Translations under genes and position numbers: made by a program
Assembly (NCBI RefSeq): GCF_026586665.1
Contig: NZ_JAODIY010000009.1
Span: 1 to 64,000 of the forward strand
Direction: 5' to 3'
Source: Halovenus rubra
GTDB lineage: Archaea; Halobacteriota; Halobacteria; Halobacteriales; Haloarculaceae
DNA: 64,000 nt
Part shown: positions 7,373-22,156 of the stretch, piece after piece
Layout: each line of letters begins with the position of its first letter
Numbering within the stretch: position 1 is the first letter of the stretch
Notes under the pieces: generated by a model
Databases searched by the model: none
Seen by the model: only the letters and a program-made list of their open reading frames with translations
Told to the model about the DNA's origin: nothing

Positions 7373-9112
7373 TCACTGAGATATCGTATCAGTATACCAA
7401 CTGTTGTCGGTGGTGTTTTCTAATTCTGGTAATCTAATAGCAACCTTTGTCCCGTCCGCATCTGTTTCGATATCCATCTCGCCGCCGAGGGTTTCAACGC
7501 CCCACTGAACTAGCCACAGACCCAAGCCGCTCCCGTGCTCTAAGGCTGTCTCTCGTTCGTCTTTCAGGGGGCTGAGTTCGTGGCCAGGAATGCCAGGACC
7601 GTCATCGCTGACAATGATTCGAACGCCATCATTCGTCGCGCTCCCCTGAAGCATAATTTCCACTCGATTATTGATGTCGGCTTGGTTTCGATCAATAGAG
7701 CCAGATACTCCGTGTTCAACCGCGTTCTCGACAAGGTTCCTAACGATGAGTTTCAGTATCTGCTCGTCGGTGCTGATGGTGAGCATGTCTTCAGTATCCA
7801 CAGTGATTCTCGCGTCAGATTCAAATTGTTGCTGCACAGCCCCGAGCAGTTCATTTACTGCGACCGGACTTGGAATCAGATCTTCGAATGCCGCCGTTGC
7901 TTTTCTTGCCTTCTCTGAAATCGATTGTAGGTCTTCAATCTGATCGATGACGATATCTATGTCGTCGTCAACAACCTCGTTCGCCTGTTCGCCAATGATT
8001 TCGACCCGCCCCCGAACGACCTGCATATCGTTTCGTAGATTGTGTCGGAGAAATCGATTCACTACTTCAAGTTGCTGTCGGCGGTGTCGTTCGTCTGTAA
8101 TGTCGGTGAACCCGATGGTATACCCGATGAGTTGTCCGGTCGAGTCATTCACCGTTGAGATTGCTACCTCGAAGTCACGCCGCCGATTTCCAACCGACTG
8201 TGTGACCAGCTGTCGGCTTGGCGACAATTCAATGTCTTCGTCAGTCAGTGTTGCTAGCTGTGTTGTCAGTGCTTGGTCTGTTGTGATCCCGAACAACTGT
8301 TCCCCAGCACCGTTCAGTGAAAGCAACCGCCCTTCAATGTCGACTACAGCAACCGGCGACCCGAGGTCGTCGATAGCTGCCTGTTCGCCGAACCGACGCA
8401 CAGCCGGTGAGAGATCAAACATCTCTTCGACGAAGAATGCGTACATCCCTGCTACCGCTGTTAATGAAAATGCGACTGGTGTGAGGTTAAATTGCGGTAC
8501 GGGACCCAAATTGAATAGCCATACGATATTCGCTATCGATGGGAGAGAGACGCCGACCAAGACAGCGACTGCCTGTTTCCGAAATACCGATCCGTAGTTC
8601 ACAATAGCGTCAAGCAACAGGATACTTGCCAGAGTCAATGTAAGGTAGGCCAGTGCGTGAGCAACCTGTAGACCGATCCGTGGCGAGAATGCGACGGTCG
8701 CGGCACCAAACACAGGACTGAGACGGTAGTCAGTCCACATAAGATGGTGATGTGGATTGGTGGCATACAATAGACCAATTCCAACCCAGACTATCCCAAG
8801 CGCATACATCCACGGTGAGCGGACGAGATCACCGCGACCAGTGTACTCTAAAGCGAATGCTAACAGCAATGGGATTGAAGCGGTGGCACCAAGCCAAAGG
8901 GGTATTTCGAACAGCTGACGCAACGATGGATCAAATATGAGAAGCCCTAAGCCGTAGGACAGCACCCAGATGCCGATTGCTGCCACTGTTCCGATCCAGA
9001 GCCGGGCAGCACGTCTGTCTCGGTATGACCAAGCAATCTTAAGTACTCCAGCGGTGATACCGGCGGTAACAAGACAGAGGGCCGCCGGCCAAGACCACAC
9101 GAGTTTTGACAT
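7373..9112 (-). CDS. 7TM sensor histidine kinase with PAS domain
   Basis: 579 residues starting at MSKLVWSWPAALCL. Residues 1-220 contain seven hydrophobic helices, matching the histidine-kinase N-terminal 7TM region. A PAS domain follows (about 235-345: SPVAVVDIEGRLLSLNGAG to the closing GFTDITDERHRR). The phosphoacceptor His is in NRFLRHNLRNDMQ (about residue 355). The ATP-binding domain shows the N box (LVRNLVENAVEHG), G1 (VSDDGPGIP) and G2 (HGSGLGLWLVQWG). It is therefore a complete membrane sensor kinase. No response regulator is adjacent, which is normal for haloarchaeal orphan kinases. An upstream in-frame ATG at 9226 would add 38 non-conserved residues; I rejected it. Confidence 0.93.
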   Translation of the reverse strand: MSKLVWSWPAALCLVTAGITAGVLKIAWSYRDRRAARLWIGTVAAIGIWVLSYGLGLLIFDPSLRQLFEIPLWLGATASIPLLLAFALEYTGRGDLVRSPWMYALGIVWVGIGLLYATNPHHHLMWTDYRLSPVFGAATVAFSPRIGLQVAHALAYLTLTLASILLLDAIVNYGSVFRKQAVAVLVGVSLPSIANIVWLFNLGPVPQFNLTPVAFSLTAVAGMYAFFVEEMFDLSPAVRRFGEQAAIDDLGSPVAVVDIEGRLLSLNGAGEQLFGITTDQALTTQLATLTDEDIELSPSRQLVTQSVGNRRRDFEVAISTVNDSTGQLIGYTIGFTDITDERHRRQQLEVVNRFLRHNLRNDMQVVRGRVEIIGEQANEVVDDDIDIVIDQIEDLQSISEKARKATAAFEDLIPSPVAVNELLGAVQQQFESDARITVDTEDMLTISTDEQILKLIVRNLVENAVEHGVSGSIDRNQADINNRVEIMLQGSATNDGVRIIVSDDGPGIPGHELSPLKDERETALEHGSGLGLWLVQWGVETLGGEMDIETDADGTKVAIRLPELENTTDNSWYTDTISQ

Positions 9113-9305
9113 CGAATAAACTATATTGTTCTCATTGAAAGTAATTTCCGGGTATATCTGTCTACATATAAATCCATAAATGATAAAATGTGAATACATT
9201 TGGATTGGACTCACCAAACAGGTCATCGAAGTTCACCGATTGGATATTCATCTCACACGGGGCTCTGAGAGAGATATGTGGTCTAAACTTACGTTCATTT
9301 ATTAG

Positions 9306-9392
9306 AGGTGCTGAATAGGTTCTCTGAATGTTGCACCGGGTTTCTGACTGACTGGATAGAGGTTTCTACTCGTCACGGTACGTTCAGCACCT
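9306..9392. mobile_element. Candidate MITE or IS-end relic with 10-bp terminal inverted repeats
   Basis: AGGTGCTGAA at 9306-9315 is mirrored exactly by TTCAGCACCT at 9383-9392. The 87-bp segment has no coding capacity. I see no clear target-site duplication, so this may be a decayed non-autonomous element or a chance hairpin. The rest of the gap from 9113 to 9573 is non-coding apart from the tail-peptide repeat. Confidence 0.4.
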
Positions 9393-9441
9393 GTACTGAC
9401 CGCTATCTGAGTCCACGAGAACTATGCTATGACAGACTCTG

Positions 9442-9530
9442 ATAAGAGACATCTATAAATCAGACGCGCAGCGCCGCGAGCGTGTGAAAGTTGCGTGGCT
9501 CTAACCCCCACCCGCGTGCGGGATGGATGC
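9442..9530 (+). repeat. Tail-peptide repeat, copy A, with degenerate GC palindrome
   Basis: Bases 9442-9504 could encode IRDIYKSDAQ...KVAWL and stop, the same 20-residue C-terminal tail found after both CRISPR arrays. The stop is followed by a CCCCCACCCG/CGTGCGGG stem, imperfect here. Nothing upstream keeps the frame open, so this is the end of a gene whose body is missing. Confidence 0.7.
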
Positions 9531-9573
9531 CAAACTGTAGTTTTCTTGATGGAAACACTCAACAGCAAATAAT

Positions 9574-9942
9574 ATGAACTCCCGAACACGCCGCCAGGCG
9601 TTGGCAGGGTTAGCATCGGCTTCAATAGTTTCGCTTGCAGGTTGCTCAGACGCTCTCAGCGAAGTTTCTGGCGGACCTGACCCTCGTGTTACTGATACCG
9701 AGTCCGGGCAAAGCATTGGTGACGCCTTGACTGGAAGTGCCGAAATCCGAGTCCTAGTCGTCAATGACGGTGATTCCGGTGATGTGGAAGTGACCGTGAA
9801 AACTTCCGACAGCAATGGGAACACGCTTGACAAATTTACGCAGACGGTGACGATCCAAGAGGGGGAAAGTCGCCGTGTTGACTTCAACGTCTCTCCGTCG
9901 GACGGCGCCCAGCGATATGAGGCAACAGCGGAGGCGGCCTAA
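9574..9942 (+). CDS. Small Tat lipoprotein with FxLYD/Ig-like domain
   Basis: 122 residues. The twin-arginine and lipobox signal (RTRRQALAGLASAS, then LAGCSD) gives lipid attachment near Cys 23. The mature part is a single beta-sandwich-like domain (EIRVLVVNDGDSGDVEVTVK then VTIQEGESRRVDFNV), of the kind used in secreted haloarchaeal proteins for cell-surface interactions. No catalytic residues are evident. A second, dead lipoprotein gene starts two bases downstream, suggesting an original two-gene unit. Confidence 0.75.
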   Translation: MNSRTRRQALAGLASASIVSLAGCSDALSEVSGGPDPRVTDTESGQSIGDALTGSAEIRVLVVNDGDSGDVEVTVKTSDSNGNTLDKFTQTVTIQEGESRRVDFNVSPSDGAQRYEATAEAA

Positions 9943-9944
9943 CT

Positions 9945-10451
9945 ATAGATCGCCGGAGATTTGTTGCTACATGTGTATCTGCCACATCAGCCTCTCTTGC
10001 CGGTTGTCTGGATGGCCTGATTGGAGAGAGTGAGGAAGAAAAAGAATTTCTCAACAAGTACGAAAGTGCCTAGGATGATAACAAAGACGGGTTAAAACTC
10101 TTTGCGGACGGCTTTGACGGCTATCGTGACGACGATCTGGAGTGGGCCAAGGTTCGATTCGAGGATGCGTCCAGTGCCTTTGACGACGCGGACGAAAGCT
10201 TTCCAGATGATCCAGAACTAGTCAGCCCTTTCTACAGTGATGAGCTTCCAGCAGTATATCAAGATGCACAGTCGGCAATTATCAAAGGCAACATCACAGC
10301 GGGATACTTGATCAACGACATCGAAACGCTCCAACCTGGTGGTACTGGGAGTATTGTCGATCCAGATGACAGAATCGAGAGCAATCAAAGTGATTTCCAG
10401 AGAGGTGTGTTTGAGATGCCTAGTGTTGCTGAATTCGAAGAATCGGTGTAA
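9945..10451 (+). pseudogene. Inactivated Tat lipoprotein gene (lost start, internal TAG)
   Basis: A continuous frame reads IDRRRFVATCVSATSASLAGC, a Tat/lipobox signal whose first codon is ATA where ATG is expected. After KYESA comes an in-frame TAG, then 122 more codons of protein-like sequence (DDNKDGLKLFADGFDGYRDDD and on) to TAA at 10449-10451. Two independent lesions make it a pseudogene. The mature part resembles helical DUF-type haloarchaeal lipoproteins; I do not know a function. Confidence 0.75.
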
Positions 10452-10616
10452 CCCAGAAACCCGGAAGCACCCCGGTTAGACTCTTTTCGGGGCCGCTTCT
10501 CATCGGTGGTATAGATTTTCCGTCGACCCCCAGGGGAACGAGGATGATTACGGGTCGACGGAAACGTTTTATTCCAACCGGTCGTTAGCATGTCTGTGTC
10601 CCGTCTCTCGGGCATG
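10452..10616 (+). promoter_or_regulatory. CRISPR leader
   Basis: About 165 non-coding bases directly precede the first repeat. Orientation is inferred from the opposite end, where the last repeat loses its final base and a nearby relic repeat is degenerate, as expected for the trailer side. The leader holds the CCCCGGTTAGACTC core (10470-10483), an inverted pair GTCGACC (10531-10537) / GGTCGACGG (10553-10561), and an AT-rich patch (AACGTTTTATTCC) that may be the pre-crRNA promoter. Confidence 0.7.
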
Positions 10617-13600
10617 GTTTCAGACGAACCCTTGTGGGGTTGAAGCCGCGTCGGGATACCGCTGGCGGATTTCGGCAGCGTTTCAGACGAACCCTTGTGG
10701 GGTTGAAGCCCACTCTGTAGCTGCTGAGTGGCCTCCTGGATGGTGGTTTCAGACGAACCCTTGTGGGGTTGAAGCTCAGGTGTGCTGTAGGCACCACTGC
10801 CAGCCACAGGTTTCAGACGAACCCTTGTGGGGTTGAAGCCGTGATTACGTGGAGGAGTATGGCAGCATCCAGGAGGGTTTCAGACGAACCCTTGTGGGGT
10901 TGAAGCCACCTTTACTGAGAGCACCCATGCCCCTTTGGGCACGGTTTCAGACGAACCCTTGTGGGGTTGAAGCCCTCAGGCCCGTACCTCGATGTTAATA
11001 ACTGGGCAGGTTTCAGACGAACCCTTGTGGGGTTGAAGCACGTGAGACTATCCGCAAATACGTAAACCAGGCTGATGGTTTCAGACGAACCCTTGTGGGG
11101 TTGAAGCTCCAGGGCATCCACACCAAAGCCCCAGGTGAGTGTTTCAGACGAACCCTTGTGGGGTTGAAGCTGACTGGACTAGTAAGGTAGACTCCAGCCT
11201 GAGCTAGTTTCAGACGAACCCTTGTGGGGTTGAAGCCCACGTTTGTAGACCTAATCTGGAGCCAGGGATATGGTTTCAGACGAACCCTTGTGGGGTTGAA
11301 GCCGCGACTGGGAGCACCCGGACGATAGCGTCAACGGCGTTTCAGACGAACCCTTGTGGGGTTGAAGCTCCGGTAGCGACCGGCCGGCCGACGAGGGGGC
11401 CTACGGTTTCAGACGAACCCTTGTGGGGTTGAAGCCTCGCCCTCGTCGTACTGCCGGGCAAGTTCGGCCGCGTTTCAGACGAACCCTTGTGGGGTTGAAG
11501 CGGTTGCTGTCTCCGTCTGGAATGAGTTGCCGTTAGCGTGTTTCAGACGAACCCTTGTGGGGTTGAAGCCTCGTCCTCGAAATCGAAGTGGACGGCCAAA
11601 TCGAGTTTCAGACGAACCCTTGTGGGGTTGAAGCGATGATCTGCTGTTGTCCTGGTTCGACGGGTCCGCGTTTCAGACGAACCCTTGTGGGGTTGAAGCC
11701 ACATCTTGCGTCCGTTTGTACTGCTTTGATTGTCGGTTTCAGACGAACCCTTGTGGGGTTGAAGCACGGACGCCATCGAGATGGTCAAAGACGGCGAGAG
11801 TTTCAGACGAACCCTTGTGGGGTTGAAGCCGGCGAGTTGACCGGGGTTGGTCATCATGTTGGCAGTTTCAGACGAACCCTTGTGGGGTTGAAGCAACGCG
11901 ACCTCATGCTCGACGAGCGCGAGATCGTCAGTTTCAGACGAACCCTTGTGGGGTTGAAGCGGAGACAGTGTGGTCGGTGACTGGGGCGGCGTCGAGTTTC
12001 AGACGAACCCTTGTGGGGTTGAAGCCGGCGTGCCTCTCCGAGACGGTCGTCGAGACTCGACGGGTTTCAGACGAACCCTTGTGGGGTTGAAGCGGGCAGG
12101 GCGCGGCTGCAACGGATAAACTCATCCGGGTTTCAGACGAACCCTTGTGGGGTTGAAGCGGTCCATCGCCTCTAACTCCGAACGGCTGTATGAGTGTTTC
12201 AGACGAACCCTTGTGGGGTTGAAGCGGAAGTCAGGCCAGTGCGACGCCAACATCTGGCATGTTTCAGACGAACCCTTGTGGGGTTGAAGCTCCGACGATA
12301 AACTTCCCGTCGTCGATGTGTGTCTCGTTTCAGACGAACCCTTGTGGGGTTGAAGCCGAATCTTGGCGTCGGCCCATGTGGAGAGGAGTTGGTTTCAGAC
12401 GAACCCTTGTGGGGTTGAAGCAATGCTGAACCATCTGAGAAACTGTACATCAAACGGTTTCAGACGAACCCTTGTGGGGTTGAAGCAACACAGCCTATCA
12501 GGTTCGGGCCGGTACCTGAATCGTTTCAGACGAACCCTTGTGGGGTTGAAGCAACTCGTGAGCGGTGACCGTGATCGACAGCATCGAGTTTCAGACGAAC
12601 CCTTGTGGGGTTGAAGCTCCTCGCATACGAGCGTCATGTGGTGGATGTCCACGTTTCAGACGAACCCTTGTGGGGTTGAAGCGCCGAGTTGGCTACCAGG
12701 ACCGACGAGATAGCGGTCGTTTCAGACGAACCCTTGTGGGGTTGAAGCAGCGGAATCTGCGGGGTGATCCGGGTGGGGATGGTTTCAGACGAACCCTTGT
12801 GGGGTTGAAGCGAGGCTCCCCTGTCCGTCCAATGCCTCTGCTACGTTTCAGACGAACCCTTGTGGGGTTGAAGCGTCGGCTATCGCTCGCTTGTCGTCAC
12901 ACCGGAGAATGGTTTCAGACGAACCCTTGTGGGGTTGAAGCATCCCCTTCGGACCTGTGCATCATACCCCTCTCAAGTTTCAGACGAACCCTTGTGGGGT
13001 TGAAGCACCCTCCTCTTCGTCGACGAACCCAGTGTGTAGGTTGGTTTCAGACGAACCCTTGTGGGGTTGAAGCCGTCCACCACTGGCAGAGCCAGGACTT
13101 GCCCCAGCGTTTCAGACGAACCCTTGTGGGGTTGAAGCGCCACCATTTGCCGCGTAGGCGCGATTATGGCACCGTTTCAGACGAACCCTTGTGGGGTTGA
13201 AGCGTGCCCATATCCCCAGATATCTCTTGCTCCCAAAGTTTCAGACGAACCCTTGTGGGGTTGAAGCATTTTTGCCTGTCCAAGTTTCAATACGACGACA
13301 GGGTTTCAGACGAACCCTTGTGGGGTTGAAGCGAACACAGCGTCCGGTTCGAGTCCTATATGACGAGGTTTCAGACGAACCCTTGTGGGGTTGAAGCCCC
13401 CGAGGTTGCCGTCCAGATGTACCTGGACGAACGTTTCAGACGAACCCTTGTGGGGTTGAAGCGGCCAGAAGGCAATTCCAGCAGACCGCGCTATCAAACG
13501 GGTTTCAGACGAACCCTTGTGGGGTTGAAGCCCACATCAGACATCACCACCAATGTCCTTTACCTCGTTTCAGACGAACCCTTGTGGGGTTGAAGCGTTT

Positions 13601-14121
13601 TGGTTTTTCAGTCATGGTTACAAGTGGTTTGGTTTCAGACGAACCCTTGTGGGGTTGAAGCAAGCTTGCATGTCCATAAATAATTACACTATGTCGGGTT
13701 TCAGACGAACCCTTGTGGGGTTGAAGCTCAATGAGCGTCTCCAGCTCACCCCAAGCGATATCAGTTTCAGACGAACCCTTGTGGGGTTGAAGCCTCTTGC
13801 AACAACGGGTGGCGGTGAGTATGCGCCGGTTTCAGACGAACCCTTGTGGGGTTGAAGCAAACGGACCCGGACCACGACCCGACAGATACCGCAGTTTCAG
13901 ACGAACCCTTGTGGGGTTGAAGCAATGTCAGATTGATTATAGGATGCGTAGTAGCTATAGTTTCAGACGAACCCTTGTGGGGTTGAAGCCAAGCCACTCC
14001 ACTCATCGATAAATCGCGGGTTGAGTTTCAGACGAACCCTTGTGGGGTTGAAGCTCCTCTGCCTCCTCTGGTTTGACACCTAGCTGTTCTTGTTTCAGAC
14101 GAACCCTTGTGGGGTTGAAGA
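10617..14121 (+). CRISPR. Type I-B-like CRISPR array, 54 repeats and 53 spacers
   Basis: A 30-base repeat starting GTTTCAGACGAACCC and ending GTGGGGTTGAAGC recurs with a 63-68 base period (spacers about 33-38 bases). I counted 54 starts, the first at 10617 and the last at 14092. All copies appear identical except the last, whose final C is A. The sequence is of the haloarchaeal I-B repeat family, which is processed by Cas6. No cas gene lies in the window, so the machinery must be encoded elsewhere. Open frames across the array repeat FQTNPCGVEA or FNPTRVRLK and are artefacts. Confidence 0.98.
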
Positions 14122-14129
14122 CCACGTTC

Positions 14130-14214
14130 ATAAGAGATATCTATAAATCAGACGCGCAGCGCCGTGAGCGTGCGAAAGTCGAGTCGCGATATACCCCACC
14201 CGAATGCGATATGG
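14130..14214 (+). repeat. Tail-peptide repeat, copy B, directly after the array
   Basis: The array's last repeat runs straight into ACCACGTTCATAAGAGA and the IRDIYKSDAQ tail sequence. Here the C-terminal stop is lost and the GC palindrome is decayed (CCCCACCCGAATGCG). The junction is shared with copy C, so the array end and this flank were duplicated together. Confidence 0.75.
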
Positions 14215-14313
14215 TTATTCATGAGTATATCGAGCAAGGAGACCGATAACGTTCTCAGTTCACCCGGACATTCCGCTTGCTTTTATCAGAACACCATCCC
14301 ATATTCAGCCCGA

Positions 14314-14904
14314 ATGTTGCAACGTGAAGAGGTGTTTCAGCAGGACTGGGCTCCAAACCAGTTGCTGCACCGCGACCGCGAACAGGAGACGCTGTTGCAG
14401 GTCCTCGGCAAGCGCTCTAACCACGTCTTGCTACACGGCCCCAGCGGCGTCGGGAAGACAGTTCTCGTTGAGCGCGTTCGCGAGCGGCTGGCTGCCGAGC
14501 AGGGCATCGAAACAGCCTATGTCGAGAGTATGGACGCCCCGACGGCGACTGTCCTCCGGTCGGTACTGCGTGATCTGTCCGGTTCCACACCGCCAGCGAA
14601 CACGCCACAAGAGGATCTGAGTCTGCAACTGTACGAGCGCGTCAACGGGCCGGTGGCTGTCTTTCTCGACGAGGCTGATGATCTCCACGAGACGACCGCG
14701 CTGGAGCGACTCTTCGACGTTGAGGGGTTGGCTGTTGTGACTGTCGTCCACGACGCCGATGAGTTTCTGGCCGCCGCTGCTGACCGCACGCGCGAGCAGT
14801 TCCACACCGGCGTTATGCACGTCCCGAAATTTGGCTCCGAGGAACTTGCGGAGTACGCTATCGAGTGTCGTGGCTGGGGATGGCTGGGTCGAGATTCCCG
14901 ATAA
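14314..14904 (+). pseudogene. Truncated Orc1/Cdc6 replication initiator (N-terminal half)
   Basis: From ATG at 14314 the frame reads MLQREEVFQQDWAPNQLLHR, the typical start of haloarchaeal Orc1/Cdc6 AAA+ proteins. Walker A GPSGVGKTVL lies near residue 45 and Walker B VAVFLDEADD near residue 120, followed by sensor-1-like sequence (VVTVVHDADEFL). Similarity stops at about SEELAEYAIE, and the frame ends 13 residues later after entering unrelated sequence. A full protein has about 400 residues, with the rest of the lid and the winged helix; both are missing. It probably cannot initiate replication, though a bare ATPase domain could still be expressed. Confidence 0.8.
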
Positions 14905-14950
14905 CCGGGAAGGAATTCCCACAGGAGAGACAGTCGAGGTCCAACAGTAG
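14861..14950 (+). pseudogene. C-terminal scrap of a MoeA-like molybdenum cofactor gene
   Basis: In the second frame, starting where Orc1 similarity ends, the sequence reads VVAGDGWVEIPDNREGIPTG and then ETVEVQQ stop. This matches the C-terminal domain IV ending of MoeA-type molybdopterin molybdotransferases as I know them (GWV-IPxxxEGIPxGETV). Only about 30 residues remain. The abrupt junction with the Orc1 fragment marks a recombination breakpoint near 14855-14870. Confidence 0.6.
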
Positions 14951-15014
14951 GACTGGACGCGGGGAGTCTGAGTTATCCGAATTATTTTATTCTGAGGACA
15001 CTTTACTGGTCGAT

Positions 15015-15299
15015 ATGGATACACTCACACGGCCAGTGTTCCGTCAGCCGGATGGACGACGGAAGGGTCTTATTTATCTGTCATTTTCGTTGTTTTGCTT
15101 TCTCGCATGGGTGTATAGTGGTGTAGCCGCTGGGTTTCACCTCTTTCTCTTTTTTGCCATCGGCAATGGATTGACCGGGGCTGCCGAATTGCTGCCTCCG
15201 GACCGACGACGTGCAGCAGGCGTCTTTCGACTATGTTCCTTTGGTGTCCTCGCTATCTATCTCCACCTCCTCGTACTGGTTCCAGACCTAGTACTCTAA
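15015..15299 (+). CDS. Small multi-pass membrane protein, unknown
   Basis: 94 residues from ATG at 15015. After a short charged start (MDTLTRPVFRQPDGRRKGL) there are three or four hydrophobic segments (LIYLSFSLFCFLAWVYSGV; FHLFLFFAIGNGLTGAAEL; FRLCSFGVLAIYLHLLVLV). The composition is convincing for a real membrane protein. I recognise no family. It stands alone between the Orc1/MoeA scraps and the mini CRISPR array. Confidence 0.65.
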   Translation: MDTLTRPVFRQPDGRRKGLIYLSFSLFCFLAWVYSGVAAGFHLFLFFAIGNGLTGAAELLPPDRRRAAGVFRLCSFGVLAIYLHLLVLVPDLVL

Positions 15300-15413
15300 G
15301 AACGAGTCAGAGAACCCGTCTTGCAGGACTCAAACAGAGGTAAGTAGAGGGAGTCGACATACTGCGAGAGTGGCGACTTATATGAAATTCAGCAGAAGAC
15401 CGGTGAAACATGC

Positions 15414-15508
15414 GTTTCAGACGAACCCTTGTGGGGTTGAAGTGTACCAACTACCGATGATTGAGGATTAATCCATGAGTTTCAGGCGAACTCTTGTGGG
15501 ATTGAAGA
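15414..15508 (+). CRISPR. Two-repeat CRISPR remnant sharing the main array's flank
   Basis: The first repeat (15414-15443) matches the main array except for its last base (T). One spacer of about 35 bases follows. The second repeat (15479-15508) differs from consensus at four positions (A8G, C14T, G23A, C30A). It then continues into the same ACCACGTT(T)ATAAGAGA flank as the main array, so it is probably the older terminal end. The four changes suggest it is no longer maintained. Confidence 0.9.
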
Positions 15509-15516
15509 CCACGTTT

Positions 15517-15601
15517 ATAAGAGACATCTATAAATCAGACGCGCAGCACCGCGAGCGTGCGAAAGTCGAGTGGCTCTAACCCCCACCCGCGTGCGGGGGG
15601 C
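15517..15601 (+). repeat. Tail-peptide repeat, copy C, with intact GC palindrome
   Basis: Bases 15517-15579 encode IRDIYKSDAQ...KVEWL and a stop, and 15580-15601 form a CCCCCACCCGC/GTGCGGGGGG stem. This is the best-preserved of the three copies and shows the original order: C-terminal tail, stop, palindrome. Confidence 0.75.
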
Positions 15602-15696
15602 GATTGCGAGGGCTTCGTATCTTGGATAAACGAAGTGTGTGATCCTTTCTATGACACGCTCAGGTGAGCTTAGAACGATGATCGACGATACCCGGT

Positions 15697-16628
15697 GACC
15701 AAGCTATCCGGTTTCTGATCCAACGTCAACTTCGACCTCGAACGACACGCCACGAGAAGAGAGAGTCTCTGCGATCTCCCGGCGCTGCTGCCGAACTTCT
15801 CACTACAGAGTACACTGATCGACTCAACGATGCTCATCCCCAGTTCTCGATATTGGCAGACGCTGCTGCTGCAACAATCGATGTCGGCTCTGAATGCGAA
15901 TCGGGAGTCGAGATGATTCTTCGAGAAAATCCATTTAAGCGCACTTCTACAGAGAACACTGCTACCGTCGTTGCGCTCTGTCAGGATCGTCCGTCCGAGC
16001 CACCGTGGGTCTCACAGATCATCCAGCAAATAGCACACAAGAGGGGCGTCCGGCATCAAAAGTAGCCCGTGAGTGGTTCCGGCAGTATCTGAGAACCGTG
16101 ATCAACCCGGTTGTGTGGTCGTACTTTGAGTTCGGTGTCGGACTGGAAGCCCATCAGCAGAACACTGTTGCTCAACTGGATGAGGTCGGCTGGCCGAAAG
16201 AAGGATTCTATCGAGACAACGGCGGGTACTGCTTCCCCGAATCCCGGTACGATCTCGTCGATAGCTGGATTCCTGGCTTGGAAAAGCGGGTAGAAACTGC
16301 TTGCTCCGACGGGATTATTGACCGCTGTCTGAGAGACTATCTATTCGTCAATAACGCAGTCGGCGTGATTAACGCACTGAGTGTCGGCCGGACTGCTGAC
16401 GAAACTACGCTGTTAAAAGTTTTCCGTGAAGAGATAGCGTCTCTTGTGGAGATCGAGCCCGCAACTTCCAGTCTTCTCTCAGTATTACTCGACAGCGATC
16501 AAATACCGTGCAAGGGGAATCTGTTTACGAGATTTGAGGGATATGACGAACTGGATTCGACCCTGGATGACGAATCTGTCTATGTTGAGATCGAGAATCC
16601 ACTCGCCACATTATTTAGGCCTGCCTAA
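15697..16628 (+). pseudogene. Broken IucA/IucC-family siderophore synthetase
   Basis: Two frames together give the C-terminal half of an NRPS-independent siderophore (NIS) synthetase. The first contains PQFSILADAAAATIDVG, ENPFKR and CQDRPSEPPWVSQII. After a frameshift near 16020-16060, the second gives REWFRQYLRTVINPVVWSYF, the family motif GVGLEAHQQNTV, and GFYRDNGGYCF. The N-terminal ATP-binding half is missing or unrecognisable, although GWINEVCDPFYDTLR just upstream (15635-15665) may be a further scrap. The enzyme would have condensed citrate or dicarboxylates with amines. With both a truncation and a frameshift it is dead. An iron box overlaps its 3' end, tying the locus to iron supply. 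Confidence 0.8.
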
Positions 16629-16632
16629 ATAA
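16611..16632. promoter_or_regulatory. Iron-box-like palindrome, distal copy before the binding protein gene
   Basis: TTATTTAGGC at 16611-16620 is mirrored by GCCTAAATAA at 16623-16632 around a CT centre: a 22-base operator with 10-base arms. It has the DtxR/IdeR core TTAGGC-N2-GCCTAA and lies 35 bases before the start codon at 16667. The right arm overlaps AAATAATAAG, the likely TATA element. Confidence 0.85.
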
Positions 16633-16648
16633 TAAGAATTAACTAAGA

Positions 16649-16662
16649 TTAGGCGAGCCTAA
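16649..16662. promoter_or_regulatory. Iron-box-like palindrome, proximal copy
   Basis: TTAGGC-GA-GCCTAA, a perfect six-base dyad ending five bases before ATG at 16667. With the TATA-like AAATAATAAG about 35 bases upstream of the ATG, transcription would start at or next to the ATG (leaderless). A bound repressor would then cover the initiation site. Confidence 0.87.
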
Positions 16663-16666
16663 AAAC

Positions 16667-17836
16667 ATGGGCGGAAATAACGACTCCCAGAAAGCACCGA
16701 CGCGGCGAGATGTCCTCAAGTACGGCGGAGTTGCAACAGGTAGCGGCTTGCTATCAGGTTGTGCCGGCTTAATTGAATCTGACACTGGGTCCACACCAAC
16801 GGACACCTCTACTCCCGAATCAACCAGCTATTCGGTAACGATGGAACCGATGGGGGAGGTAGAGTTCGAGTCGGTTCCCGAAACGTGGGTCCCGTATAGT
16901 GGTGATTACGCCGATATGGCCGTCGCGCTCGGCAAGGCTGATGGGATCACAGGGATCGGGGGCGCGGACCGTTACTACACTTATTTCTACGACGAACTCG
17001 ACGGTGTGAGCATCGACCAGGATACCATCGAATCCAGCCCTGAAGTCCGGACCAAGGAGCAGTTCCACGAACTGGACAGTGACGTTCACCTCTACGACCC
17101 GCAGATGCTGATCAACTGGTTCGACTGGGACCAATCCGACGTAGAAGAAATCACCGAGAACGTGGCCCCGTTCTTTGCGAATCTAATCTTTCGGCAGGAG
17201 GACGGCTGGCACGACCATCGCTACTACACGCTCTACGGCGCGTTCGAGAAGGTTGCGGAGATGTTCCAGGAGCAGGAGCGCTACCGCGCCTTCGCGGAAC
17301 TTCACGACGAGTTCATCAGCAACATCCAGAAGCAGCTCCCACCGGCCGGCGAACGGCCGAGCGTAATGCTACTGTACAAGCAGACAGCGGAAGCCGATAC
17401 GTTCTCTCCGTACCGGCTCAATGACATGGGCACGAGCAAGAAGCAGTGGCGCGACCTCGGTGTCCCCGACGCGCTGGCACGGACCGGCATCGATGGAATC
17501 AGCACCACCGACCGGGGAGAACTCGACTACGAGACGCTGCTCGAAATCGACCCCGAGGCGCTTCTAATCCGTGGCTATGGGCAGATATCCGTCTCCGAGT
17601 TCCGGGACACCGTACTTCAGAAATTCCGTGATCACCCAGTCGGGAGCGAACTGACTGCGGTCCAGAATGGTCGCGTCTACCGCGGTGGGTTCCTCTATCA
17701 GGGCCCGATCCACAATCTCTTCCTGACCGAGCGGGCAGCCCAACAAATGTACCCCGACGTGTTCGGCGACGTGACCAGTGACGAAGAACTGTTCGACCGG
17801 CAGCGAGTTGCGGATATCGTTAACGGGGAGTTCTAG
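16667..17836 (+). CDS. Ferric-siderophore ABC transporter substrate-binding lipoprotein
   Basis: 389 residues. A Tat signal with lipobox (PTRRDVLKYGGVATGSGLLSGC) anchors it by Cys 32 or so. A Ser/Thr/Pro linker leads to a periplasmic-binding-protein fold of the FepB/FhuD class (PF01497): VTMEPMGEVEFESVPETWV at the start of the N-lobe, a long backbone helix near residues 180-225, and a C-lobe with LLEIDPEALLIRGYGQ and VGSELTAVQNGRVYRGG. It ends FDRQRVADIVNGEF, a tail shared by all three paralogues here. Two iron boxes control it. No permease or ATPase gene follows, so it must work with transporters encoded elsewhere. It follows the dead siderophore synthetase and converges with the flavoprotein gene. 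Confidence 0.88.
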   Translation: MGGNNDSQKAPTRRDVLKYGGVATGSGLLSGCAGLIESDTGSTPTDTSTPESTSYSVTMEPMGEVEFESVPETWVPYSGDYADMAVALGKADGITGIGGADRYYTYFYDELDGVSIDQDTIESSPEVRTKEQFHELDSDVHLYDPQMLINWFDWDQSDVEEITENVAPFFANLIFRQEDGWHDHRYYTLYGAFEKVAEMFQEQERYRAFAELHDEFISNIQKQLPPAGERPSVMLLYKQTAEADTFSPYRLNDMGTSKKQWRDLGVPDALARTGIDGISTTDRGELDYETLLEIDPEALLIRGYGQISVSEFRDTVLQKFRDHPVGSELTAVQNGRVYRGGFLYQGPIHNLFLTERAAQQMYPDVFGDVTSDEELFDRQRVADIVNGEF

Positions 17837-17851
17837 CGTTTCTGACGGCCG

Positions 17852-18736
17852 TTATTTATCCAGTTCAGCCTCGATTTCCGCGGCGCGGTCGAGCACTATG
17901 TCGTCGTCGAGGTGTGCAACAAGGCTACGGTGACTGCGCCGGCGGCGTTTCCGCTGTTCAGCTGGCGAGATTGCTTGCTCCACCTTCTGCCTGACGTACT
18001 GTGACTGTAGCTCATCGAAGCGTGCTTCGGAGAGGTCGGCGTCTTCGGCCCGGTCTGTGAACTCCTTCCGGACGTACTCCTCCCAGTCACCGTCGATGAC
18101 TGACCCTTCAACGAACACCCAGTCAGTGTAGTGAGTCGCGAGATCCTCGGGCAAGCCCTCATCGCATCGTACATTATGTATCAGCCCGAGTGCAGTCTCG
18201 CCCGCCTGTCCGGCGGCAACCACAACTTGGTCTTCAGCCGTCCCAAGTCGGCCGGCAAAATAGAGCCCATCTACCGATGTTCGACCGTAGCGTTTGCGTT
18301 CCTCCCAATTGATATCAACTTCCCCGTCGTCTCCCAGAAACTCTCCCACGTCAAGTGTTTCGAGCCACTCTCGTCCGTACTTCGCCGCCGCGACGAGCGA
18401 TTCAGTCGCGTACTCATCTCCTGTTTCAGTTTCAACACGAAAGCCGTCTGCCGTCTGGGTTGCTGCTACAGCCTTCTCATGCGTTATTTTACAACCGGCT
18501 CGCTCGGCCTGTGTGTGCAAAAATTTCTGGAACGTTGGCGTATCGATTCCAGCAGGGAAGCCGGGAAAATTCTCCAGATGTGCGATCCGCCCCATCGATG
18601 ACCGACCACGATCCAGAATTAGTGTGGAGAGCCCATATCGGCTCGTAAAGACACCAACTGTAATCCCTCCAACGCCACCGCCAACGATAACAACGTCATA
18701 TTCCCCAGTTACTGTCTTTTGAGACTCATTTGACAT
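17852..18736 (-). CDS. Thioredoxin-reductase-like FAD protein lacking the NADPH domain
   Basis: 294 residues. The FAD dinucleotide site is YDVVIVGGGVGGITVGVFTS (residues 12-31), and the closing FAD motif GLYFAGRLGTAEDQVVVAAG lies near residue 170. Between them, where thioredoxin reductases carry an NADPH-binding domain of about 120 residues with a CxxC, there is only a short linker. There is no GxGxxA/G repeat and no redox Cys pair. A charged C-terminal extension of about 90 residues (helical, RKRRRRSHRS) is added. A perfect iron box lies 8 bases before the start. A role in reductive iron release or siderophore chemistry is plausible but inferred. Sequestration or another FAD chemistry is also possible. 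Confidence 0.78.
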   Translation of the reverse strand: MSNESQKTVTGEYDVVIVGGGVGGITVGVFTSRYGLSTLILDRGRSSMGRIAHLENFPGFPAGIDTPTFQKFLHTQAERAGCKITHEKAVAATQTADGFRVETETGDEYATESLVAAAKYGREWLETLDVGEFLGDDGEVDINWEERKRYGRTSVDGLYFAGRLGTAEDQVVVAAGQAGETALGLIHNVRCDEGLPEDLATHYTDWVFVEGSVIDGDWEEYVRKEFTDRAEDADLSEARFDELQSQYVRQKVEQAISPAEQRKRRRRSHRSLVAHLDDDIVLDRAAEIEAELDK

Positions 18737-18744
18737 GATCTGGA

Positions 18745-18758
18745 TTAGGCCGGCCTAA
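18745..18758. promoter_or_regulatory. Iron-box-like palindrome before the flavoprotein gene
   Basis: TTAGGC-CG-GCCTAA is a perfect 14-base dyad, 8 bases before the minus-strand ATG (18736). Its position matches that of the boxes before the binding-protein genes. It also lies 15 bases before the plus-strand GTG at 18773, so it could affect the divergent gene train. Confidence 0.87.
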
Positions 18759-18772
18759 ATGATAAAACGTAC

Positions 18773-19075
18773 GTGTTTGACCCCAGAAGGATCTCGGTAG
18801 TCTCTCGTAGGGGCCACTCAACTGGTGGCGTAGATCAATGCAGCGGGCAAACGAATGTGTCCTTGAGGGATGGTCTCCAGTTTGGAGACCACCCCGTCCT
18901 GCCTGCTCATGACTTCTTCCGACCCTACCAAAGGGACCACGGCCTCGCCGAGTTGCTTGTTGACGACGACCGTTCACAGGGCCGTATTTACGGTCTGACC
19001 GATGACGGCGAGATTGTCGCCGCGCAAGTTCCCGGGGCCGACCCCCACCCGGATGCGGGGGGTGGTGAGGCATGA
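18773..19075 (+). CDS. Small protein, first gene of an overlapping plasmid/provirus train
   Basis: Up to 100 residues if GTG at 18773 is used; no internal ATG exists in frame. The last 60 residues look most protein-like (LAELLVDDDRSQGRIYGL, TDDGEIVAAQVPG). The final residues (DPHPDAGGGEA) are encoded by a GC palindrome inserted near the gene's end. It ends in GCATGA, overlapping the next start. I recognise no function. The start and the N-terminal 40 residues are doubtful. Confidence 0.5.
   Translation: MFDPRRISVVSRRGHSTGGVDQCSGQTNVSLRDGLQFGDHPVLPAHDFFRPYQRDHGLAELLVDDDRSQGRIYGLTDDGEIVAAQVPGADPHPDAGGGEA
19042..19065. repeat. 24-base GC palindrome within a coding sequence
   Basis: CCCCCACCCG GATG CGGGGGGTGG. 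It is nearly identical to the element at 19688-19711 and to the stems after the tail-peptide repeats. It lies in frame at the 3' end of the first gene of the train and encodes HPDAGGG. Confidence 0.8.
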
Positions 19076-19140
19076 GCCGACGATATAGCGACATGCAATG
19101 TATGGCTTGTGTTTGTGCGCGAGGTAAGACCGATGCGTAA
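19072..19140 (+). CDS. 22-residue Cys-rich microprotein
   Basis: MSRRYSDMQCMACVCARG... starts at the ATGA overlap with the previous gene, and its TAA lies within the start of the next gene (ATGCGTAA). The end-to-start overlaps on both sides suggest it is translated. The CMACVC cluster might bind a metal. Its size makes this tentative. Confidence 0.45.
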   Translation: MSRRYSDMQCMACVCARGKTDA

Positions 19141-19456
19141 AGACCCTGAGCGCCTGCCGAGAGACGCGAAGCCAGTTGTTGTTTCTCTGGAAACTGGCGA
19201 GGAAACGTTTGCTGCAACCCACGAGACGCTTGAGTCGGGCTGGTTGTGGGTTGAACTGTGGGACGGAACTCGTCGAAAATTGCCCCCACAGCGTATCATG
19301 CGTGTCGATACTGTCGAGACGACCGCACACCGGAAGGACGGGACGTGTTGGCACGAGGTGTCCGACCCTGAGCTGGTCGAGCAAGCGAAGCAGGCCGCCG
19401 GTCTTGACGACAGGCAACGGCGCGCGGTCGCAGACGGTGGTGAGAGAGATGGGTGA
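19133..19456 (+). CDS. Small hypothetical protein of the train
   Basis: 107 residues from ATG at 19133 (MRKDPERLPRDAKPVVV). A compact beta-rich segment (VSLETGEETFAATHETLES, then LWVELWDGTRRKLPPQRIM) resembles an SH3-like or small barrel fold. A polar C-terminus follows (ELVEQAKQAAGL). It overlaps the genes on both sides by 8 bases, as expected for coupled translation. I know no family name for it; similar small proteins are frequent in haloarchaeal plasmids and proviruses. Confidence 0.65.
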   Translation: MRKDPERLPRDAKPVVVSLETGEETFAATHETLESGWLWVELWDGTRRKLPPQRIMRVDTVETTAHRKDGTCWHEVSDPELVEQAKQAAGLDDRQRRAVADGGERDG

Positions 19457-19721
19457 GTACTACGAGTATCGTGTCTGTGCTCTCTTCGATTACAACCACC
19501 CGCAGACTGTCTCAGACGAGCAACTCATGGAGGTAACGACCCAGTGGACGATGGATCGAGACAGGGCTATCGCGGAAGCGGAGTCTCTACGTGAGAAAGG
19601 TTCGGGGAATGTGACGGTTGAAACCCGTCTGCGGGGCGATTATGGCGATTTTGAGGAGTTGCCTGAGTCTCTAGGAGAGCATTCAGACCCCCACCCGCAT
19701 GCGGGGGGTGGTTCTCGGTGA
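19449..19721 (+). CDS. Small hypothetical protein of the train, palindrome-encoded tail
   Basis: 90 residues from ATG at 19449 (MGEYYEYRVCALFDYNHPQ). The body is a plausible small alpha/beta protein with QWTMDRDRAIAEAESLREKG as a helix. The last residues, DPHPHAGGGSR, are encoded by a GC palindrome, almost the same tail as the first gene of the train. It overlaps the next gene by GTGA. Function unknown. Confidence 0.62.
   Translation: MGEYYEYRVCALFDYNHPQTVSDEQLMEVTTQWTMDRDRAIAEAESLREKGSGNVTVETRLRGDYGDFEELPESLGEHSDPHPHAGGGSR
19688..19711. repeat. 24-base GC palindrome, second coding copy
   Basis: CCCCCACCCGC / ATGCGGGGGGTGG. It has an exact CCCGCATGCGGG core dyad and lies in frame at the 3' end of the preceding small gene. 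It differs from the copy at 19042 only at the centre. Confidence 0.82.
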
Positions 19722-20023
19722 CTGAAGAGACAGCGACAGACGACGAGCGAGAACCGATATTTGAACCTCGTGAGCGGGCGCTTATCACCGCGTCGGCTAG
19801 TATCGCACTCGTCGTTGGCCTGTGGTTAGGTCACTGGTTGGTTCCTTCTGAGGCGTTCGCCGAGCATATCACACACAATGCGACATACACCGAGGGTGTA
19901 GATGCCTACTATCAGCCGACAAATAGGCTCTTACCGCTGTTCTCGGTGTTCATTCTGGCGCTGGGAGGCTACTGGTCGTATCGTGGCTTCGTCGAGGCTG
20001 ATGAGGAGGTGGCCGAGTCGTGA
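19718..20023 (+). CDS. Two-TM membrane protein of the train
   Basis: 101 residues from GTG at 19718, overlapping the previous stop (GTGA). Two clear membrane helices: LITASASIALVVGLWLGHWL (about 25-45) and LLPLFSVFILALGGYWSYRG (about 72-92), with a polar loop between and an acidic C-terminus. This is a typical small holin-like or structural membrane protein of archaeal mobile elements; no specific function can be assigned. Confidence 0.68.
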   Translation: MTEETATDDEREPIFEPRERALITASASIALVVGLWLGHWLVPSEAFAEHITHNATYTEGVDAYYQPTNRLLPLFSVFILALGGYWSYRGFVEADEEVAES

Positions 20024-20208
20024 GGGACGCTCTCGATGGGCTGCTCGACGCGCTCCGGTCGTGGTGGTCTCCGACCTGTAAGGCTCCGGGGTGTGACTCC
20101 GAGGATACAGACTTGATGTTGGTTGCTGGTCGGCTCGTTCTGCTTTGTCCCGAGCATTCGGTCGAGATGGCGCTGGCGGCTGTCGAGACCGACGAGGTGA
20201 GCCGATGA
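20020..20208 (+). CDS. Small Cys/His-containing protein of the train
   Basis: 62 residues from GTG at 20020, overlapping the previous stop by 4 bases. It contains PTCKAPGCDSED (CxxxxC) and LLCPEHS, a possible single zinc site (two Cys, then Cys-x-x-His). The small zinc-binding fold is common in the auxiliary genes of haloarchaeal viruses and plasmids. Function unknown. Confidence 0.6.
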   Translation: MRDALDGLLDALRSWWSPTCKAPGCDSEDTDLMLVAGRLVLLCPEHSVEMALAAVETDEVSR

Positions 20209-20315
20209 GTGACTCGACTGCCGACGGCTGCTTGGACTGTGGAAACCAGCCTGTCGTTGCTGGTGGGCTGTGTAGCGCGTGCCACGAGTACTACGAGGAG
20301 GTGACTGTACTGTGA
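20205..20315 (+). CDS. 36-residue zinc-finger microprotein
   Basis: MSDSTADGCLDCGNQPVVAG and then GLCSACHEYYEE: two CxxC knuckles 15 or so residues apart, a complete zinc-binding set. It starts inside the previous stop (ATGA) and ends TGTGA, overlapping the GTG of the next gene. Very short but well supported by motif and position. Confidence 0.65.
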   Translation: MSDSTADGCLDCGNQPVVAGGLCSACHEYYEEVTVL

Positions 20316-20551
20316 GTTCTGAGGATAAATACCGAACTGAGCCACCCGATGACTTGCCGTCGGGAATCGAGAACTGGCCGTATGAACAGCGCATCGAGTG
20401 GGCGAAATCAATGTACCTGCGAGAAGGGTTAATCATGCAACTACTCACCAGAGGAAATCATCCAAATCCGAGCCTCAGAGGAAAAGACATGCACCTGACA
20501 AAAGAAGAACTAGCAGCGATATATCTAGCTGTCCGGGGTGTTGCCGAATGA
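20312..20551 (+). CDS. Conserved small protein closing the train
   Basis: 79 residues from GTG at 20312. The sequence (PPDDLPSGIENWPYEQRIEW, AKSMYLREGLIMQLLTRGNH, LTKEELAAIYLAVRG) is of a type often seen in haloarchaeal plasmids and pleolipovirus-like elements. Its second half may be a short helix-turn-helix (HLTKEELAAIYLAV). No confirmed function. It ends the overlapping gene series; the long empty stretch follows. Confidence 0.65.
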   Translation: MSSEDKYRTEPPDDLPSGIENWPYEQRIEWAKSMYLREGLIMQLLTRGNHPNPSLRGKDMHLTKEELAAIYLAVRGVAE

Positions 20552-22156
20552 CCCGGTTGACTAGGCGGCTGATATCACACTCCCAGCTAAAGACCCTTAT
20601 TTGTGAATGTAATATCCTATTTCTCCCGATACATCCATCCGTGTCGATTAATGACTTCATGTACACATCTAAAAGTCTTCTCTCTAATATGGCTAGCCAG
20701 AGACTGCTTGTTGATTTTCTTTTCTGGATATATTCAAAAGGGCTCTCGAATTATTCATACCGCTGTGAGCCAATAGCCTTTCTGCGTTTGAACCCACGAC
20801 TCAAGAGACCATGTCTGCTCTGATAGTGGTTTTTATATGGGGAAAGGTATGAACAAAAATCATCTTTGCCTATTAAGCTAACTTCCCGACAACATACGCC
20901 AAAAGTAATTTGTAGCCAGAAGACTGCCGCCGCGTTTGATTCTGTACGACGTTGCCACTAAGCCAACTCGCTCTTTATAGATACGTTCTCCCCATGTTAT
21001 TCATAGAGTACAGCTGAGAAGTGACATACTTCTCGGACCTGAATAGCTTAATTAATGAGTTGCAATAGATCTCGTGCAGACTGCGATTGTCCGCCTGTTT
21101 GCTACGCCGAGTCAGCGCTACAAGCAGTGCAGTACCTACATCACACAAACGGTACAACACAGTTTGGCTTCTTGCGTGAGATGTATCTCAAAAGTTGCCA
21201 CGATAACAAGTTTTCGCAGTCTTCCCGCCTCTCTTGTCCGATTAGAAAATCGCCACACTCGATTCGTTGAATTTGGTGTTTTGGTTCTTTTAGCATGTTA
21301 TCTCGGACAAGAAGCTATCTCGCGCAGGTGTCAGCCGGCAATAGTGCCAGTGTCGTCTTAATCAGTCCTGTCGTAACTCACGACGACTAACGTCTCTGCC
21401 AAGCGTTTCCGTTGCGGAAATCCGTGATGCTCTCTATTGGTGTTCTCGTACAACCAGTAGTGTGTTATTATTGACATATTTCGTCTGCCTGACTGGATAT
21501 GATGTCACACCACATCAGGAGACGATACCGTACCAATAGCTCTAAGTTCTTTAGATAAACGTAGCTTGTCTCTCTTACTCGAAAATCTATATGGGTATTG
21601 GCTCTCGTCGTCTAACTACGACTCGAATTGTACTCCCTGACTGCAACACACTGGCTGCCCTATCTTTGTATTCTCACGTCCAGAGACATTGAGGAATGCT
21701 AACGGCATATTGGAGTATTTACTATCGCCTTTGATCTCTCCTCAACTGGGGTAAAACATGGTGGCACTTTCCAGCATCCCTACATTTAACCGTAGAATCC
21801 TGATTAAGTGGTGTTCGGTTTCTAGCACTGACCTGCTTTTGTTGCATCTGAATACGACAACTTTCGTGTCTCGTCTTGGTTCTTGACTCAACTAGAAACT
21901 AATTTACTATTTTGACTTTCTCGGAACTTGTAAATGATATAGTGCTATATTATACTATCTCTGTCTGATGTTCGGAATGTAGGTGGATAATGCACAGGTT
22001 ACAACATTTCCGGAGTGAAATAAAAAACGGCGGGACGGATCGAGAAGCACGTAGAGTCGTTTTCTAGCGTTTCTGATAGGTCAAAAGAATTAAACGCCAA
22101 TATTCTGGATCGTTGTCACTGGTGAGTTTGCGAATTGGACGGAGAAGAGCAGCGTG
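20552..22156. other. 1.6-kb stretch with no supportable gene
   Basis: AT-richer than its surroundings. The open frames are short and lack protein-like composition, Shine-Dalgarno context or recognisable motifs. I find no tRNA, no CRISPR unit and no long inverted repeat by eye. It is likely decayed mobile-element DNA, with possible replication-origin-like AT-rich runs (21540-21600, 21900-21960), but no origin boxes can be claimed. Confidence 0.5.

Follow-up and report, generated by a model that had tools for sequence, protein, structure and literature searches.

The question raised by this locus is why a short GC palindrome should lie in frame at the coding ends of small genes and give them almost the same C-terminal tail. 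The DNA analysed, hereafter the window, is a 64,000-nt stretch of the Halovenus rubra contig NZ_JAODIY010000009.1, from a genome of 3.57 Mb; loci fetched from other genomes are denoted by L numbers, and genomes by G numbers. Both in-frame copies claimed by an earlier note on this DNA are present. With a leading GA they read GACCCCCACCCGGATGCGGGGGGTGGT (19040-19066) and GACCCCCACCCGCATGCGGGGGGTGGT (19686-19712), are identical at 26 of 27 positions, and end their ORFs in DPHPDAGGGEA* (copy 1) and DPHPHAGGGSR* (copy 2). The palindrome has arms of ~11 bp and a centre of 2 bp. The features concerned are the following:

9505..9525, + strand: decayed palindrome copy, directly 3′ of a TAA and ~50 nt 5′ of a lipoprotein-like ORF (9574-9942)
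14194..14208, + strand: palindrome remnant CCCCACCCGAATGCG, a decayed half that has lost the stem, in the third repeat-unit copy
15580..15600, + strand: palindrome copy directly 3′ of a TAA, with a repeat unit next to a CRISPR repeat on its left flank and a gene start on its right flank
18932..19075, + strand: 3′ remnant of a winged-helix (HVO_A0261_N-type) gene, 5′ part lost, ending DPHPDAGGGEA*
19042..19066, + strand: copy 1 of the putative hairpin/Shine-Dalgarno element, CCCCCACCCGGATGCGGGGGGTGGT, with ATG after 5 nt
19072..19140, + strand: 22-aa ORF that begins in the ATGA overlap downstream of copy 1
19133..19456, + strand: 107-aa ORF ending VADGGERDG*, homologue of a gene of the H. salina train
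19449..19721, + strand: 90-aa ORF ending DPHPHAGGGSR*, the upstream gene of copy 2
19688..19712, + strand: copy 2 of the putative hairpin/Shine-Dalgarno element, CCCCCACCCGCATGCGGGGGGTGGT, with GTG after 5 nt
19718..20023, + strand: 101-aa ORF that looks membrane-type, its GTG overlapping the stop (GTGA) after copy 2
20312..20551, + strand: 79-aa ORF, 75% identical to a gene of the H. salina train, with a plain Shine-Dalgarno here and a hairpin Shine-Dalgarno in L059/L274

The genes at 18932-20551 are read as a degraded relative of a provirus-like gene train, that is, as a fragment, because the winged-helix gene lacks its 5′ part. The remnant starts at about 18932, and its type was assigned from the Pfam match of its H. 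salina homologue. Thus, of the earlier statement that the palindrome ends two small genes, the part on the second gene stands, whereas the first is what remains of a winged-helix gene and not a whole gene. Compared with the train of Halovenus salina, identity amounts to 58% for the winged-helix gene (over a 45-aa stretch), 58% for the 107-aa gene and 75% for the last gene. At E 0.001, the 90-aa ORF matched only itself among the 243 genomes of the order, and the start that follows the 107-aa ORF has a plain, weaker Shine-Dalgarno (SD), GGTGGTGAG, without the palindrome. When the train was searched by BLAST, four plasmid records covered 4-5% of it and no phage record was matched. The stretch at 18840-18933, which abuts the truncated winged-helix gene, resembles haloarchaeal plasmid DNA (four records, with an IS66 transposase annotated in one).

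In the whole H. rubra genome, CCCCCACCCGCNTGCGGGGGG with up to three mismatches gave five matches at four distinct places (9505, 15580, 19042 and 19688), one palindrome being read on both strands; with the patterns used, all copies fall inside the window, within a 10-kb stretch. The copies that had been placed after stop codons at 9505 and 15580 are both real and lie directly after TAA. At 14194 a remnant is indeed present, but it is a decayed half and the stem is absent. Within the window alone, searching the 13-mer half with up to two mismatches gave three matches against 1.15 expected, which is not significant. The gene start on the right flank of the 15580 copy is also found in the clusters of G306 and G305, and in L059 the homologue of the lipoprotein-like gene at 9574-9942 is likewise preceded by a palindrome copy.

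Mapping of the palindrome in related genomes, as the earlier note had proposed, showed recurrence without dispersal, the copies lying in provirus-like clusters. With up to three mismatches allowed, the 25-mer was matched 28 times, in 10 of the 146 genomes analysed from the same family, and never by the reversed-pattern control, so that chance recurrence can be ruled out. A 21-mer with up to one mismatch was found in 6 of the 243 genomes of the order (one reversed-control match), and the 16-mer CCCACCCGCATGCGGG in 2 of 146 genomes of the order, the H. rubra genome included (one control match). The core CCCACCCGCNNGCGGG had at least 19 matches in 5 of the 18 genomes of the genus (three control matches), where the copies form one cluster per genome of up to ~20 kb, the exception being a single copy on a second contig in G305. 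A scan of genome contigs returned 15 stretches, 5 haloarchaeal (in Halovenus salina, H. carboxidivorans and two Halobacteriales MAGs) and 10 bacterial; one of the latter (Cellulomonas, L019) matched the longer element, and all ten were put aside as GC-rich background. BLAST with the 30-nt element gave three phage records at E 8, all bacterial phages, and no plasmid at E 1. In IMG/VR, two long patterns and ACCCGCATGCGGGGGGTG gave 0 matches each and the shorter core CCCACCCGCNNGCGGG at least 120, so that this core alone is unspecific there.

The regions in which the element clusters encode mostly betapleolipovirus-type genes. Proteins of the betapleolipovirus Halorubrum pleomorphic virus 9 (HRPV9) match the fetched cluster regions in eight of the nine genomes with start-associated copies, the matches including the integrase, a PhiH1-like repressor, ORF17, ORF19, VP14, a DUF7845 protein and others; G119, G195 and G338 have merely two or three such matches each, and the window itself has none. 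An integrase homologue is present in four fetched loci, and a homologue of the PhiH1-like repressor in five (L058, L062, L065, L067 and L069).

A total of 35 copies were scored for their position relative to genes; the list is neither exhaustive nor unbiased, and the copies are related to each other. Copies at L063:11892 and L061:18169 (minus strand) and weaker matches, e.g. in L060, L062 and L071, were seen and left unscored. The variants at L059 6166 and L069 2279 are in the alignment and outside the start copies defined below, the start copy L068:10153 is outside the alignment, and the copy in L070 (G324), which lies in a C-rich stretch, was counted as a non-start copy. In 21 of the 35 scored copies, from nine genomes, an ATG or GTG that begins an ORF of at least 20 codons stands 4-5 nt after the 25-mer. 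The same property is found at 4.2% of positions in the same trains; the resulting binomial P of about 2e-20 overstates the case, since the scored copies are neither independent of each other nor drawn without bias. The start overlaps the upstream stop as RTGA in 17 of the 21 start copies and by 8 nt in two; the overlap in L071 is 11 nt, with a doubtful upstream ORF of 37 aa, and at L068:10153 the stop of the frame that is homologous to relatives precedes the start. Hence the earlier note was right that one short palindrome recurs in coding ends with frames intact; the genes concerned are small and unrelated, and related genomes show the same.

The upstream gene reads the element in the PHPHAGGG frame in 19 of the 21 start copies, which could be taken as a sign of a conserved C-terminal peptide tag under protein-level selection, all the more as the same peptide is retained inside another protein in L057, L061 and L068. 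We consider such a tag extremely improbable. With the start at a fixed spacing from the element and the RTGA overlap in place, the frame in the upstream gene is fixed as well, and the tail therefore needs no protein-level cause; it is probably a by-product of spacing and overlap. At L072:816 the start spacing is kept while the upstream ORF of 158 aa has the element in a different frame (PPACGG), and L068:10153 is ambiguous, a 22-codon frame with no start codon before the element giving PTRMRG and a longer frame giving PHPHAG. In four pairwise comparisons between homologous upstream genes, three of them with members in common, codons for the same residue differed synonymously in 1 of 26 cases within the element, as against 38 of 80 cases in the gene body. 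Conservation thus acts on the nucleotides of the element. Winged-helix matches occur in 216 of the 243 genomes of the order, and a homologue with the same tail and without the palindrome, the case that the earlier note had singled out, was looked for among the best 30 loci from other genomes: none of the 29 readable ones has the tail, and four (L076, L088, L090 and L092) end over a strong plain SD-like sequence.

Other gene families show the same alternation. A hairpin SD precedes the integrase gene in L059 and L069, and the SD before it is plain in L062 and L067; for the 79-aa gene, the hairpin was seen in L274 (the same gene as in L059) and a plain SD in the window and in H. salina, and none of six more distant homologues has the element. 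The element therefore comes and goes independently of the protein family.

Base-pairing of the 3′ arm, GGGGGGTGGT / GGGGGGUGGU, with the 16S rRNA tail GGAUCACCUCCU is possible over ~10-11 positions, including two G-U pairs, and the 5′ arm, ACCCCCACCCG, can fold over the 3′ arm and so cover the SD. The 16S tail used ends in GGATCACCTCCT; a 39-nt sequence of it is matched at 99% or more in 18 plasmid records, all haloarchaeal among the ten matches listed. The 16S end of H. rubra itself was not located, the sole exact 12-mer in the assembly being without an Rfam match and looking protein-coding. A duplex with the anti-SD of -15 kcal/mol or below is predicted for 20 of the 21 start copies against 2 of the 14 others (means -17.4 and -11.0), and the folding energy of the hairpin is about -12 to -21 kcal/mol. 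In 18 start candidates representing 17 hairpins the SD is paired on average at 0.85, as compared to 0.57 in a further 60 SD start candidates from these trains, a value no higher than that of shuffled sequence (0.59). For the hairpin SDs, the C-rich upstream sequence gives a high value in shuffles as well (0.76), so that the excess is modest (mean z 0.8). The stem was unsupported by the covariation test, its one compensatory pair being equalled in 417 of 500 shuffles, and RNAalifold showed no covariation in the stem. The helix is too conserved for such signals, and a role at the DNA level would therefore look the same. Formation of the hairpin is nevertheless plausible.

The reading that we favour, and to which we give about an even chance, is that the element is a portable hairpin SD of pleolipovirus-type proviruses, serving translational coupling at overlapping stops and starts. 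It lies in the last codons of a small upstream gene, 4-5 nt before the next start, with RTGA as the usual overlap between the two genes. The 3′ arm of the element would act as an extended, partly wobble SD for the 16S tail, over which the 5′ arm would fold in the cell. On reaching the end of the upstream gene, a ribosome would open the hairpin, so that the SD would be freed while that ribosome terminates at the TGA; the freed SD may then hold the same small subunit for a restart at the overlapping start (termination-reinitiation). Starts without translation of the upstream gene would be disfavoured by the folded hairpin. The element itself may have spread through recombination among related elements.

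A stop-start overlap with an SD inside the upstream gene, the arrangement by which termination-reinitiation is recognized in haloarchaea, is present here. Published extracts on haloarchaea describe ample SD use at overlapping gene pairs for reinitiation and a steep drop in reinitiation as the stop-start distance grows (PMC6728339, PMC10666635), both of which fit the coupling reading. According to the same extracts, SD motifs in Haloferax volcanii do not drive de novo initiation at 5′-UTRs, the contribution of the SD to reinitiation is highly variable, and an upstream gene's last 15 nt can be enough for reinitiation (PMC6728339, PMC10666635). This weakens the need for a hidden SD. Furthermore, the 14 scored non-start copies are left unexplained by a pure translation role.

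Copies away from starts stand directly after a stop (9505, 15580, L059:17337 and L067:2387), close to a gene's 5′ end (L057:9019, L068:8988 and L066:7196), on the minus strand inside the homologue of HRPV9 ORF17 (L057 16248, L061 15121 and L068 15551), or elsewhere. The ORF17 homologue reads DDLHPHAGGG (L061 and L068) or EDLHPHAGGG (L057) at a site where HRPV9 has DDLKPQSMKR and HRDV1 has DDLKPESMKG. This site thus represents a replacement rather than an insertion, because it holds a different stretch of about equal length (by eye). In the window, a repeat unit of 80-90 nt encoding IRDIYKSDAQ(R/H)RERxKVxWL* occurs in three copies (9442-9522, 14121-14208 and 15508-15600), two of which directly follow a CRISPR repeat. 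Similarity between the units (95% for 9442-9522 and 88% for 14121-14208, relative to the 15580 copy) stops at or near the palindrome, and the third copy is diverged at its end. Neither the DNA of the unit nor its tail peptide matched any plasmid. By these comparisons, the 15580 site is a chimeric join at the palindrome between the repeat unit and the gene start common to G306 and G305. The non-start copies suggest a second role of the palindrome at the DNA level, perhaps as a recombination boundary or a protein-binding site.

As side observations, the CRISPR array at 10617-14121 is of haloarchaeal type (Rfam CRISPR-DR24) and is accompanied by a two-repeat remnant at 15414-15508; exact repeats number 54 at 10617-14092, plus one at 15414. 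Its spacers had no match of 24 nt or more in the fetched loci, including the IMG/VR core loci, beyond the loci holding the array itself. The palindrome was not assigned to an Rfam family, since a search of 8500-21000 yielded the CRISPR repeats and one sub-threshold miRNA match. In the QS_4_66_20 cluster (L059 15700-17361), a two-gene lipoprotein-like cassette has a palindrome on each side, one of the copies lying directly 3′ of the stop of a recombinase-like ORF (gene types by eye).

The leading rival or companion of the translation role is that the palindrome marks a boundary or recombination site for the exchange of provirus gene cassettes, the SD being carried along and keeping incoming genes translated. 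On its own we hold this to be rather unlikely, even though it would account for the join at 15580, for the two copies flanking the L059 cassette, for the differing genes downstream of a CxxC 51-aa gene and its element, namely a 55-aa gene in L058 and the integrase in L069, and for the slot after the 107/108-aa gene family, which is filled by differing genes that all end in the element (window, L058, L059 and L069). The genes in the slot mostly have an element on one side only, so that crossover from element to element cannot alone explain the swaps, and no clean empty site with both flanks homologous was noticed in an unsystematic look at the compared loci. Arms of ~11 bp with a 2-bp centre would also be short for a tyrosine recombinase site. 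Integron attC sites are hairpin sites at the 3′ ends of gene cassettes, the array being recombined by a tyrosine recombinase; the element here stands at the 3′ ends of genes and an integrase homologue is present in four loci, whereas most slot genes have no element on their left side. A combination of the two roles, in which one palindrome would serve as a portable gene-boundary module, both as the join for cassette exchange and as the hairpin SD coupling any incoming gene to the preceding one, is decidedly unlikely; the provirus integrase might then carry out the exchange on single-stranded DNA that folds in the course of rolling-circle replication. It is also unlikely, to a degree lying between these two, that the palindrome is a DNA-binding site for the virus repressor or another dimeric protein, comparable to the stoperators that mycobacteriophage L5 carries at gene joins. 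In the same clusters the core CCCGCATGCGGG is found at starts, after stops, inside genes and between genes, and five loci encode the PhiH1-like repressor homologue; for the ESAS repeats of mycobacteriophages, Pope et al. considered a protein site likelier than a hairpin (PMC3203893). In several start copies the core, with GGATGC, GGACGC or GCACGC at its centre, is an imperfect palindrome, which speaks against a binding site, as does the fact that the extension beyond the core varies with the presence of a start codon downstream.

A replication signal, i.e. a binding site for the betapleolipovirus Rep-Arvir or an origin hairpin, is highly improbable. The extracts on the betapleolipovirus origin, which shares with our element the hairpin and the virus group, describe SNJ2 as dependent on a hairpin, with an inverted repeat upstream of it, in the noncoding region that follows the Rep gene (PMC13107129). 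In contrast, L066 and L071, the only fetched stretches holding a DUF7845 (Rep-type) homologue, have no perfect core within several kb downstream of it, and the Rep origin hairpin was set aside as far as these two loci allow. The REP/MITE behaviour suggested by the earlier note was not supported. REP/BIME elements are short palindromes at or in genes, with many dispersed extragenic copies and a RAYT (Y1) transposase; MITEs are marked by terminal repeats, target-site duplication and empty sites; and Rickettsia palindromic elements insert in frame and lengthen the protein relative to its homologues. The likeness lies in a short palindrome repeated at or in genes, and a mobile palindrome of one of these kinds, inserted into genes in a tolerated frame, would explain why one 25-bp sequence lies in many unrelated genes, even inside the ORF17 homologue. 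Such an origin is improbable, in our view. The copies are not dispersed: the H. rubra genome has four places in 3.57 Mb, all in the window and two of them in coding ends, and in five genomes of the genus they are confined to one cluster each, bar the one in G305. No RAYT (Y1) transposase is nearby, the sole Y1-transposase (PF01797) match of the H. rubra genome being on contig C1 and the window on C48. The ORF17 site is a replacement of about equal length and not an insertion. The winged-helix tails vary in length among homologues, with no clean empty site seen. The unbroken frames, moreover, have a simpler cause than REP/MITE spread, namely the fixed distance to the RTGA overlap. A virus-borne, start-associated hairpin/SD element explains the finding better than REP/MITE behaviour. 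The suggestion of a terminator was not borne out for the two in-frame copies. An intrinsic terminator is a GC stem followed by a T-run, and no T-run follows the copies at 19042 and 19688; the one terminator-like match in the region, at 19932, corresponds to the rate in shuffled sequence. Two copies in L059 do adjoin T-runs.

Parallels to a virus-borne, structured coupling unit are the SAS/ESAS of mycobacteriophages and the TURBS of eukaryotic RNA viruses. The SAS of cluster K mycobacteriophages is described as a short virus-specific repeat, typically 3-7 bp before the starts of non-structural genes of different families, with an SD pairing with 16S rRNA and without exact copies in the host genome, to which ESAS adds inverted repeats (PMC3203893); other papers call its role still unclear (PMC11373665, PMC12699233). 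As in SAS/ESAS, the repeat here stands a few nt before starts (at +4/+5 in 21 of 35) and contains an SD with the potential for pairing to the 16S tail. It differs in that SD and inverted repeat form one unit, placed inside the upstream coding end at RTGA overlaps, in that virus and host are archaeal, and in its unrelated sequence. The cluster K consensus given there, GGGATAGGAGCCC, is not matched (by inspection), so that the element would work like SAS/ESAS without being a member of it. TURBS, in caliciviruses and influenza B, are described as rRNA-complementary sequences just upstream of an overlapping stop-start that are needed for termination-reinitiation, extend over about 45 nt, relate to helix 26 of the eukaryotic 18S rRNA, and may involve RNA structure (PMC3035654). 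The present element likewise has an rRNA-complementary stretch just 5′ of the overlapping stop-start; the function was demonstrated experimentally for TURBS, whereas here it is read from sequence. Short stop-start overlaps with an SD inside the upstream gene are also reported for Haloferax volcanii; those are ordinary host SD motifs, and the extracts consulted describe no repeated hairpin-SD unit (PMC6728339, PMC10666635). A description of the element was likewise not found in the accessible portions of open-licence literature on pleolipovirus palindromes, Halovenus proviruses and haloarchaeal hairpins combined with an SD. If the coupling reading is true, archaeal viruses would bring along a structured, repeated ribosome-binding unit of their own that couples starts to the preceding stops, and the tuning of reinitiation in haloarchaea could be tested directly on genes that occur naturally both with the hairpin and without it. 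For annotators, identical tails on small virus proteins can mark a nucleic-acid signal and not a common protein function.

Partly similar sequences were seen in three further cases. On the reverse strand of L064, at offset 9908, a half element, ATGCGGGGGGTGATGAGCGGTGA, keeps the 3′ arm, has a different 5′ arm and precedes another start. In G195 (L006, about 1376-1403) a second hairpin, GACCCGGCCGCCCAGGCCGGGGGTGGTC, has another stem and the same GGGGGTGGTC end. Finally, in L275-L279, which belong to another genus and hold five homologues of the gene at 20312-20551, another palindromic stretch beginning with ACCCCTGGGG has an SD-like right half and stands before the ATG.
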